NCBI RefSeq assembly: GCF_004114935.1
Contig: NZ_CP022221.1
Location: forward strand, 9,011,001 to 9,075,000
DNA length: 64,000 nt
Reading direction: 5' to 3'
From: Bradyrhizobium zhanjiangense
Lineage (GTDB): Bacteria; Pseudomonadota; Alphaproteobacteria; Rhizobiales; Xanthobacteraceae
In this document: in pieces, positions 12,676 to 29,913 of the stretch
Position numbering within the stretch: position 1 is the stretch's first letter
Layout of the letters: the number at the start of each line of letters is the position of its first letter
Made by a program: the position numbers and the translations under genes
The notes under the pieces: model-generated
Databases searched by the model: none
What the model was told of the DNA's origin: nothing
Seen by the model: only the letters and a program-made list of their open reading frames with translations

Positions 12676-13155
12676 CTACGCGCGCTTGCGGCGCAGATGC
12701 ACGATGACGTCGAGCCGCGCGATCTCGTGGCCGGGAAGCGCCTCGGGCACCCTGGTGAAAGTCAGGCCCTCGGCGACGTCGACCAGCACATCGTCGCCTT
12801 CGAGGTAGAAATGCGGATGCACGGATGTGTCGGTGTCGAAGAACGATTTGATGCCGTCGGCCGCGATCCGGCGCAACAAGCCGGCTTCGGTGAACTGGTT
12901 CAGCGTGTTGTAGACGGTCGCGAGCGACAGATACATGTTCGCCGCCATCGCCTCGTCATAGAGCTTCTCCGCGGTGACGTGACGATGGCCGTTCAGGAAC
13001 AGCAGCTGGCCGAGCGCCAAGCGCTGGCGCGTCGGGCGGAGGCCAGCCTCGTTCAGCAGTTGAAGACAGCGTTGCACGCCCTCATCCGGCTGCGGCCCGA
13101 CGGCATCGGGCCCGCTGTCGTTACCGGCAGGGATATTCGTGGCGTACATGTCCAT
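12676..13155 (-). CDS. irr: Fur-family iron response regulator, Irr-like paralog
   Basis: A 159-residue Fur-superfamily repressor most like Irr, the heme-linked iron regulator of Rhizobiales. Conserved parts are LRPTRQRLALGQLLF, HVTAEKLYDEA and the recognition helix SLATVYNTLNQFTEAGLLR. Two features of classical Bradyrhizobium Irr are missing: the N-terminal Cys-Pro heme motif, and the HHH cluster, which reads VHPHFYLE here. This suggests the second Irr-type paralog, perhaps not degraded by heme. Start at 13155 (or ATG at 13149); the longer frame crosses a palindromic repeat. A FixK-type box lies about 85 bases upstream. Confidence 0.82.
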   Translation of the reverse strand: MDMYATNIPAGNDSGPDAVGPQPDEGVQRCLQLLNEAGLRPTRQRLALGQLLFLNGHRHVTAEKLYDEAMAANMYLSLATVYNTLNQFTEAGLLRRIAADGIKSFFDTDTSVHPHFYLEGDDVLVDVAEGLTFTRVPEALPGHEIARLDVIVHLRRKRA

Positions 13156-13237
13156 CGATCGTCTCACGTCTGCAAGAACCAGGACGCGCAACACGCTATC
13201 CCAGTTGCTATTCGATCGCAGAAGCGACGACTTGGCT

Positions 13238-13251
13238 TTGATCCGGATCAA
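13238..13251 (-). promoter_or_regulatory. FixK/FNR-type box upstream of the Irr-like gene
   Basis: TTGATCCGGATCAA is a perfect palindrome fitting TTG-N8-CAA with the ATC extensions preferred by CRP/FNR-type activators such as FixK2. It sits 83-96 bases before the start codon at 13155, compatible with a class II site near -40 of a promoter. The only other gene nearby ends at 13428, so the Irr-like gene is the sole plausible target. Confidence 0.72.
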
Positions 13252-13278
13252 ATTTGGGACTTCGATTGCCTCCACGCC

Positions 13279-13362
13279 GTCATTGCGAGGAGCGAAGCGA
13301 CGAAGCAATCCAGACTGCCTCCTCGGTGGGACTCTGGATTGCTTCGCTACGCTCGCAATGAC
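13279..13362. repeat. Intergenic palindromic repeat, family C
   Basis: The ends read gtcattgcgaggagcgaagc and its complement ending tacgctcgcaatgac; the inner arms contain gcaatccaga and tctggattgc. This is the common cattgcgaggagcgaagcga-type repeat of Bradyrhizobium and relatives. It lies upstream of the FixK-type box of the Irr-like gene. Confidence 0.88.
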
Positions 13363-13427
13363 GGAGTTTGGCGCAACAGCGCCTGACACAATGTCGCTCG
13401 CGAGCGTGGCCGCAGACAATGCTGCTC

Positions 13428-14186
13428 CTATTTTCCCTTAACCGGGGTCGGCTTCGGTGCCGGCACTTGCGCCCATTCCTTGTCGGCGCGGGGACCATTG
13501 AGATCGCCGGTCAGGCCAACGAGTTGACCGGGCAGCACGTCGAGGGTCTGTTGCCAGGTTTGGGTCTGGCACAGGATCTTGATCAGGCATCCCCTGAGCT
13601 TGAGGCGGTCAGGGGATTCGCGCCAGAGCGAGACCGAGTACGACTTGCCGTCTTCGGCATTGTAGATGTCGCCGGCAAACCGCCCCTCGGGTGTCGCCTG
13701 CAAGCCCATGATGAGCTGGTGGCCGAGCAGCATGCGGGCGCGCTTGTCGGGATCTGGATTCTGGCTGTCGCGATAAGGCTGGCCGCGTTTGTCGACCGGC
13801 TCCTTCATCCAGACGATGAAGCCGCAAATACGGTCGCGCGACGGACCGCAGCGCTCGAGCCGGATGCGGGTGCGGCCGTCCTCGACCAGCCAGGTGCCGC
13901 TCGGATCGGTGGACGTCGCCTTGTCCTTGTCGGACATGTCGCCGAACTGGTGATCCCTCCCCCGGTAGACGACGACGGGATCGAGGATCACTTTATTGTA
14001 AGCGCGCCAGTCGACCTGCGTGGAATAGCGGTAGGGCACGCGGCCGGAAGCGTCCGACTTGTCCGGAGCCATGTAGGCCGAGGACGCCATCTCCGAATAG
14101 AGCACGGGAGCGACCGAGGCGCAGCCGGCGGCGGCCACGCAAAGCACCAGCGTTCCCAGACCGCGCAGGGCGATCGAGCGATCCAT
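13428..14186 (-). CDS. Lipoprotein joining a DUF3313-like segment to DUF2147
   Basis: A 252-residue lipoprotein: the signal ends with VLCVAAAGC, whose cysteine would be lipidated. Residues about 30-90 resemble the first part of DUF3313 lipoproteins (VDWRAYNKVILDPVVVY). From about residue 95 a DUF2147 domain follows (SGTWLVEDGRTRIRLERCG, ICGFIVWMKEPVD, DRLKLRGCL, the cysteines typical of the family). The DUF3313 part is truncated. Start at 14186, with GAGGA seven bases upstream; the longer frame to 14615 is not supported. Function unknown; probably on the periplasmic face of a membrane. Confidence 0.75.
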   Translation of the reverse strand: MDRSIALRGLGTLVLCVAAAGCASVAPVLYSEMASSAYMAPDKSDASGRVPYRYSTQVDWRAYNKVILDPVVVYRGRDHQFGDMSDKDKATSTDPSGTWLVEDGRTRIRLERCGPSRDRICGFIVWMKEPVDKRGQPYRDSQNPDPDKRARMLLGHQLIMGLQATPEGRFAGDIYNAEDGKSYSVSLWRESPDRLKLRGCLIKILCQTQTWQQTLDVLPGQLVGLTGDLNGPRADKEWAQVPAPKPTPVKGK

Positions 14187-28346: not shown

Positions 28347-28683
28347 CGGGGCGTCCTTTCGCATGAGCTGTCGGCACGACCGACCCGCGCCCTGCCTCGG
28401 GACGAGGCTATGGGCGTCGGCGCGACCGACTCTTCAATCATGGACGGAGCGCGCGTCATGGACAAAATGTCCATGGCAGCCCCTGCCCTCCCCCGGTGCC
28501 GGTCCCGGCCGGCGGGCCTGTGCTAGGCGGTTGATCCAAATCAACAATCGCCGCCGGACCGGCGTTATCAATTGGCACGCTCGCCTTGCCGCAAATGTGC
28601 GCAGGCGCATGGACATCGGAGCTGGAAAAGCTCTAAAAATTGGACGGCCGCCTTGGGCCAGGTTTCCGCTGCAGGTTTTGCCG
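28347..28683. other. Divergent intergenic region of the AroQ-like gene and hemA
   Basis: A 337-base region between the two divergent starts. It holds a FixK-type box at 28531-28544. No gene is visible in the region; the long open frame that includes hemA starts inside it but is not needed for hemA. No repeat is present. Confidence 0.6.
28531..28544 (+). promoter_or_regulatory. FixK/FNR-type box upstream of hemA
   Basis: TTGATCCAAATCAA fits TTG-N8-CAA with the flanking ATC of CRP/FNR-type sites; only the central four bases break full symmetry. It lies 140 bases before the hemA start and faces the same region as the AroQ-like gene (185 bases from its start). Control of hemA by a FixK-like activator at low oxygen is the likely reading, inferred from position and sequence. 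Confidence 0.75.
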
Positions 28684-29913
28684 ATGGATTACAACGAGTT
28701 CTTCAGTTCCGCCCTCGCCCGTCTCCACACCGAGCGGCGCTACCGCGTGTTCGCCGATCTCGAGCGCACGGCCGGCCGGTTCCCGCACGCGGTCTGGCAC
28801 TCGCCCAAGGGCAAGCGCGACGTCGTGATCTGGTGCTCCAACGATTATCTCGGCATGGGCCAGCACCCGAAGGTGGTCGGCGCCATGGTCGAGACCGCAA
28901 CCCGCGTCGGCACCGGTGCCGGCGGCACCCGCAACATCGCCGGCACGCATCATCCGCTGGTGCAGCTCGAGGCCGAGCTCGCCGATCTCCACGCCAAGGA
29001 AGCCGCGCTGCTGTTCACCTCGGGCTATGTCTCGAACCAGACCGGCATCCCGACCATCGCAAAGCTCATTCCGAACTGCCTCATTCTGTCGGACGAGCTC
29101 AACCACAATTCGATGATCGAGGGCATCCGCCATTCCGGCTGCGAGCGGGTCGTGTTCCGCCACAACGATCTGGCGCATCTCGAGGAGCTGTTGAAGGCGG
29201 CCGACCCGAATCGGCCGAAGCTGATTGTCTGCGAGAGCCTCTATTCCATGGACGGCGACGTCGCCCCGCTCGCCAAGATCTGCGATCTCGCCGAGAAATA
29301 CGGCGCGATGACCTATGTCGACGAGGTCCACGCGGTCGGCATGTACGGCCCGCGCGGCGGCGGCATCGCCGAGCGTGACGGCGTCATGCATCGCATCGAC
29401 GTTCTGGAAGGCACCCTGGCGAAAGCCTTCGGCTGCCTCGGCGGCTACATCGCCGCCAACGGCCAGATCATCGACGCCGTGCGCTCCTATGCGCCGGGCT
29501 TCATTTTCACCACCGCGCTGCCGCCGGCGATCTGCTCGGCCGCAACCGCCGCGATCAAGCATCTGAAGACCTCGAACTGGGAGCGTGAGCGCCACCAGGA
29601 CCGCGCCGCCCGCGTCAAGGCGATCCTCAATGCCGCCGGCCTGCCGGTGATGTCGAGCGACACCCATATCGTGCCGCTGTTCGTCGGCGATCCCGAGAAG
29701 TGCAAGCAGGCCTCCGACCTGCTGCTCGAGCAGCACGGCATCTATATCCAGCCGATCAACTATCCGACCGTCGCCAAGGGCTCCGAACGGCTGCGCATCA
29801 CGCCCTCGCCCTATCACGATGACGGCCTGATCGATCAGCTGGCCGAGGCTCTGCTGCAAGTGTGGGATCGTCTCGGCCTGCCGCTGCGCCAGAAGTCACT
29901 GGCGGCGGAGTAG
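28684..29913 (+). CDS. hemA: 5-aminolevulinate synthase
   Basis: A 409-residue PLP enzyme that condenses glycine with succinyl-CoA, the first step of heme synthesis in alphaproteobacteria. The sequence has the alpha-oxoamine synthase core: [15 protein letters not shown] near 76-90, [28 protein letters not shown] with D213, and the PLP lysine K247 in [13 protein letters not shown]. The ATG at 28684 gives the known length and N-terminus (MDYNEFF). The gene is monocistronic, behind a FixK-type box. All catalytic residues are in place. Confidence 0.97.

Follow-up and report, generated by a model that had tools for sequence, protein, structure and literature searches.

In Bradyrhizobium zhanjiangense, the gene for a second Irr-family regulator (irr2) is preceded by a perfect palindrome that is very probably an operator of the class II CRP/FNR type, through which the FixLJ low-oxygen cascade, by way of its effector FixK2, would activate irr2 transcription at low oxygen. 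This reading follows from the conservation of the box, its spacing from a predicted -10 element, its restriction to irr2 among the irr copies, and the fact that the genome encodes FixK2; both FixK2 as the binding protein and activation as the effect are probable on these sequence grounds. The relevant features of the window (the whole stretch of 64,000 nucleotides that was analysed) are:

12676..13155, minus strand: irr2, encoding Irr2, a 159-residue Fur-superfamily regulator (Pfam FUR, two NCBIfam Irr models, motifs)
13210..13215, minus strand: predicted -10 hexamer TCGAAT, 23-28 nt after the box
13238..13251, minus strand (placed for the minus-strand gene): putative FixK2-type box TTGATCCGGATCAA (palindrome, matrix score, conservation)
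13274..13367, no strand: palindromic repeat element of nested inverted repeats, in the interval that separates the box from the upstream gene
13428..14186, minus strand: upstream gene, DUF3313/DUF2147 (Pfam), ending 176 nt before the box
28531..28544, plus strand: second perfect box TTGATCCAAATCAA, upstream of hemA and used as a control
28684..29913, plus strand: hemA, 5-aminolevulinate synthase (TIGR01821)

Sequence and conservation of the box

The box upstream of irr2 (TTGATCCGGATCAA, 13238-13251) is its own reverse complement and occupies bases 83-96 upstream of the irr2 ATG (13155, minus strand), leaving a gap of 82 nt. An earlier note on this DNA had described a fully symmetric TTG-N8-CAA site here, 83-96 bases before an Irr-like start, and its sequence, coordinates and distance are exact; the sole neighbour does lie on the same strand and end 176 bases away, as that note had it (13428, minus strand), and is not the target. 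The interval between this DUF2147/DUF3313 gene and irr2 also contains the nested palindromic repeat (13274-13367), which is possibly a terminator.

The box fits the FixK2 consensus TTGA/C-N6-T/GCAA given in the available text of PMC9104804. On a matrix built from the 19 published FixK2 boxes of Table 2 in the same partial source, it scores 21.2, within the range of the 19 source boxes (13.8-21.6); this is the weight-matrix comparison that the earlier note had proposed. It is the top-scoring 14-mer of the window, and the hemA box at 28531 is second (20.7). The perfect pattern TTGATN4ATCAA is found in the window only at these two sites, and at 25 places in the 9.34-Mb genome, versus none for the pattern reversed. 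With up to two mismatches, the window holds 33 matches versus 12.35 expected, a number reached by 0 of 100 shuffles. The exact 14-mer TTGATCCGGATCAA is found at two places genome-wide, the other copy (L001 1501-1514) overlapping the stop codon of one gene, upstream of a gene of the histone deacetylase family.

Irr2, with a cut at approximately 70% identity, was found in 76 (including this one) of the 243 Bradyrhizobium genomes searched, and the upstream regions of all 76 orthologs were examined, a box being called at a score of at least 14. The earlier note had named absence of the box upstream of orthologs as the outcome that would count against it; the box is present at 75 of the 76 (the identical 14-mer at 59, a score of at least 18.8 at 74). 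One ortholog (L094) has no box in its upstream region and another (L095) has a weaker variant (14.1); in a 43-row tree that includes 13 of the 76, L094 and L095 are the Irr2 rows placed apart from the main Irr2 group. Among 80 named records kept, whose genomes partly overlap the 76, the box is present at 19 of the 20 loci of at least 72% identity.

The columns of the box carry a mean of 1.87 bits of information, those of the 40 nt before it 0.48 and those of the 60 nt after it 1.00. The distances from box to gene are spread over all three frames (31, 22 and 22 orthologs), so its conservation is not explained by coding. All 75 boxed orthologs have T at the first and last positions of the hexamer at +23 to +28, as expected of a -10 element with the box centred at -41.5; relative to a start predicted from the sequence near 13203, the box centre would have this class II spacing.

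Irr2 and its relatives

Irr2 scores above the cut-offs of both NCBIfam Irr models (NF045677, 186 bits, cut-off 170; NF045678, 177.6 bits, cut-off 150). A search of its own genome with Irr2 returns three matches: itself, a 56% identical relative that carries GCPWH and HHH and is thus canonical Irr, and a 30% identical relative. Like the canonical Irr of Bradyrhizobium, Irr2 matches the NCBIfam models and keeps the recognition helix SLATVYNTLNQ (74 of 76 Irr2, 11 of 11 canonical Irr). In contrast, GCPWH, the heme regulatory motif (HRM), is present in 0 of 76 Irr2 versus 11 of 11 canonical Irr, and the HxH heme site is HPH in 75 Irr2 and HAH in one versus HHH in all 11 canonical proteins, none of whose genes (0 of 11 examined) is preceded by a FixK box. 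Thus, the Irr-like iron regulator of the earlier note does belong to the Irr family, but it is a paralog without GCPWH and not Irr itself.

Intermediate HRM-less paralogs (L096-L118, 52-70% identity) have a box in 1 of 23 cases (L118, imperfect, 14.8), and no sigma-54 promoter was found before any of these 23. In 20 of 23 cases nifD is on the same contig as the paralog, at a distance of 19-38 kb (approximately 26 kb in 12); the other three are on other contigs. Outside the set, imperfect sites precede three HRM-bearing irr loci (L171 and L230, 15.2; L169, 11.1); L171 and L230 share site sequence and distance, and perhaps represent one species. L158, which lacks the HRM and is 63% identical, is preceded by a good site (19.0), and L222 by a poor one (12.4). 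In other genera of the family, none of six HRM-less irr copies (L222, L223, L224, L304, L305 and L306) has a site scoring at least 14, the best being 12.4 (L222) and 9.9 (L304).

Other box-bearing loci and the binding regulator

As a control, the hemA loci that are the 30 best matches among 61 genomes were examined, and a box is present at 30 of 30; its central bases vary more than those of the irr2 box, the commonest form accounting for 12 of the 30. The hemA and irr2 genes are 15.5 kb apart and divergently oriented. One of the 25 genomic sites immediately precedes a COX1-family gene, 12 nt ahead of a mechanical ORF start; the gene is fixN-like from its place 4.5 kb from fixK2. Another is approximately 270 nt before a NapD gene and also 97 nt upstream of an opposite-strand ORF. 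A Pfam scan covered 20 ORFs near 16 of the 25 sites, and a known FixK2 target was not identified behind every site.

FixK2 is encoded in the genome (match to PDB 4i2o, E = 1.9e-141, with a cysteine at the position of the entry's serine), as are 21 proteins with the HTH_Crp_2 domain in all. The palindrome can hardly be a chance occurrence, or a part of a dispersed repeat, with no regulatory role: a repeat element is indeed located about 22 nt away, but the box is outside it, the element is found once in the window, and the box accompanies 75 of 76 orthologs. It is improbable, though less so, that the site is of CRP/FNR type but has FixK1, NnrR or another member as its main activator, with FixK2 perhaps acting indirectly through it. 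The 21 HTH_Crp_2 proteins would allow this, B. diazoefficiens is described as having a FixLJ-FixK2-NnrR cascade (from partial text), and nirK is encoded in more Irr2 genomes than others, for which shared ancestry is a possible cause. Against it, the irr2 box ranks by score with the best of the published FixK2 boxes and shares its form with the hemA, fixN-like and nap sites, although neither observation separates FixK2 from close relatives of like specificity. The earlier note, which proposed that FixK2 uses this site, was probably right on that point. Across the 243 Bradyrhizobium genomes, nirK is found in 73 of 76 with Irr2 versus 73 of 167 without (Fisher p = 8e-17); on the hemA tree (30 of 61 genomes) the counts are 20 of 21 versus 4 of 9 (p = 0.005), with so few independent pairs (three on supported branches, six on all) that shared ancestry may underlie the association. 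The association of Irr2 with nifD is weak (57 of 76 versus 101 of 167, Fisher p = 0.03).

Predicted role of Irr2 and the fixK2 promoter

In B. japonicum, the degradation of Irr is set off by ferric heme at the HRM, with an oxygen or reactive oxygen step suggested, according to the available portions of a review and a research paper. The Irr of Rhodobacter sphaeroides, which like Irr2 has no HRM and has proline in its HxH site (HPH), still binds heme, as stated in the available text of PMC3413700, where no FixK control of that gene is mentioned. The lack of GCPWH therefore predicts that Irr2 escapes heme-triggered degradation, not necessarily heme binding, and by analogy its HPH may bind heme. 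In the mechanism proposed, FixK2 would activate irr2 at low oxygen and would also raise hemA alongside it; Irr2 would likely supply an Irr resistant to heme-triggered degradation, and, having the recognition helix of canonical Irr, it may act on Irr boxes at low oxygen.

The genome was searched with a pattern of 14 specified bases that we take to be the Irr box. It matches without mismatch at two genomic sites, one upstream of a ferritin-domain gene (by 43 nt) and one upstream of a rubrerythrin-VIT gene (by 17 nt); with two mismatches allowed, the control gives 10 matches versus 5 for the real pattern, and so the perfect sites alone were used. For irr2, hemA, fixK2 and canonical irr, the best matches in the upstream 400 nt have 6, 4, 5 and 4 mismatches, respectively, none of them convincing (of 159 window pieces taken as background, 4 reach four mismatches and 12 reach five). 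Since no Irr box was found in these 400 nt before fixK2, direct feedback of Irr2 on fixK2 is not supported. That Irr2 should be the FixK2-dependent repressor that closes a loop at the fixK2 promoter is accordingly quite unlikely: the best match there, 5 mismatches in 14 specified bases, is within background, whereas the same presumed pattern matches perfectly before the ferritin-domain and rubrerythrin-VIT genes, and the loop would have to use an unlike site or an indirect route, as it possibly does. Irr2 does keep the Irr recognition helix, and blr1216 was earlier proposed as a candidate for this repressor, as cited in the available text of PMC9104804.

Two B. japonicum Irr targets named in the part of PMC3413700 that was available resemble the ferritin-domain and rubrerythrin-VIT genes. 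In B. diazoefficiens, bacterioferritin and rubrerythrin, whose genes have Irr boxes, increase as proteins in microoxia with transcripts not matching (PMC6515984, partial text), which fits poorly with simple repression by Irr2. No account of Irr2 targets was found in the literature searched, outside which the main papers lay.

Apparent recruitment in a second genus

Another genus of the same family (g26, probably Rhodopseudomonas), one genome of which is presumably that of R. palustris HaA2, includes a second, HRM-less Irr in 7 of 16 genomes. FixK-type boxes precede six of these seven genes (scores 17.4 to 20.0), three of the six having two boxes, and no FixK-type box was found before the seventh (L270); among the 15 HRM-bearing irr copies of the genus, the best site scores 9.8. 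The HRM-less paralogs of g26 keep HHH.

A tree of 56 proteins, including 15 of the 76 Irr2, 12 of the 23 intermediate paralogs and six of the seven g26 paralogs (L270, a long branch, was left out, as was L114), places the g26 paralogs apart from Irr2. A joint group of the two is rejected (p-AU = 7e-5), as is a single clade of all rows labelled boxed (p = 0.0007), whereas one clade of Irr2 (without L094) and the boxed L158 is not (p = 0.136), these AU p values being generous because the groups were defined after the first tree. At least three state changes are required; gains and losses look alike on this unrooted tree, and two gains plus one change elsewhere, as the simplest reading, suggests separate recruitment. 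It is quite possible, and is proposed tentatively, that HRM-less Irr paralogs came under FixK control on two or more occasions, in Bradyrhizobium and in a second genus of this family. The recurrent solution would be an Irr that resists heme-triggered degradation and is produced when oxygen is low, a condition under which the oxygen-dependent breakdown of canonical Irr would proceed differently.

Published data on R. palustris TIE-1 concern a gene annotated 'possibly Irr' (Rpal_2583) that, in the available text of PMC3050613, is up 13- to 92-fold in anaerobic growth by qRT-PCR; in a fixK deletion it is down 26.6-fold on succinate and likewise down on acetate, benzoate and hydrogen, but not on 4-hydroxybenzoate (4.3) or Fe(II) (1.49). 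FnrN/FixK sites are also reported before R. palustris irr (PMC4999443, partial text). Rpal_2583 is like irr2 in being an Irr-like gene linked to FixK, and its FixK dependence probably concerns the g26 type of paralog, which lies outside the Irr2 group, has HHH, and is double-boxed in three of its six boxed members.

Relation to earlier work and significance

Irr2 is 87% identical to a protein of a comparison genome that we take to be that of B. diazoefficiens USDA 110; the box there is identical and gene order is conserved over the 31 kb compared. On the basis of this synteny and identity, the spacing to hemA and the presumed identity of the comparison genome, irr2 is apparently the ortholog of blr1216, a gene known here from its name in the available text of PMC9104804. 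According to that text, blr1216 is among the regulatory genes earlier proposed in connection with FixK2 and fixK2 autoregulation, and so the basic claim is not new. In the same partial source, blr1216 is not among the genes down in both the C183D-fixK2 and the fixK2 deletion strains, an absence that says little either way because 920 of 970 regulon genes are unchanged in C183D. Thus, the FixK2 link of the apparent ortholog was already in print, and what is apparently new is the FixK-boxed, GCPWH-less Irr of g26 outside the Irr2 group; the literature search found no account of repeated FixK recruitment of Irr paralogs, a weak negative as subscription papers were mostly outside it.

The box of irr2 would tie oxygen sensing to the control of iron and heme by way of a second Irr that, from its protein features, is predicted to be stable where canonical Irr is degraded. 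This is relevant to life in root nodules and by denitrification, in which the demand for heme is high. The strength of the conservation, the missing degradation motif in the paralog and the apparent second recruitment make the system worth following; a near-invariant operator, together with its apparent repetition in another lineage, provides a concrete and testable reason for studying Irr2.
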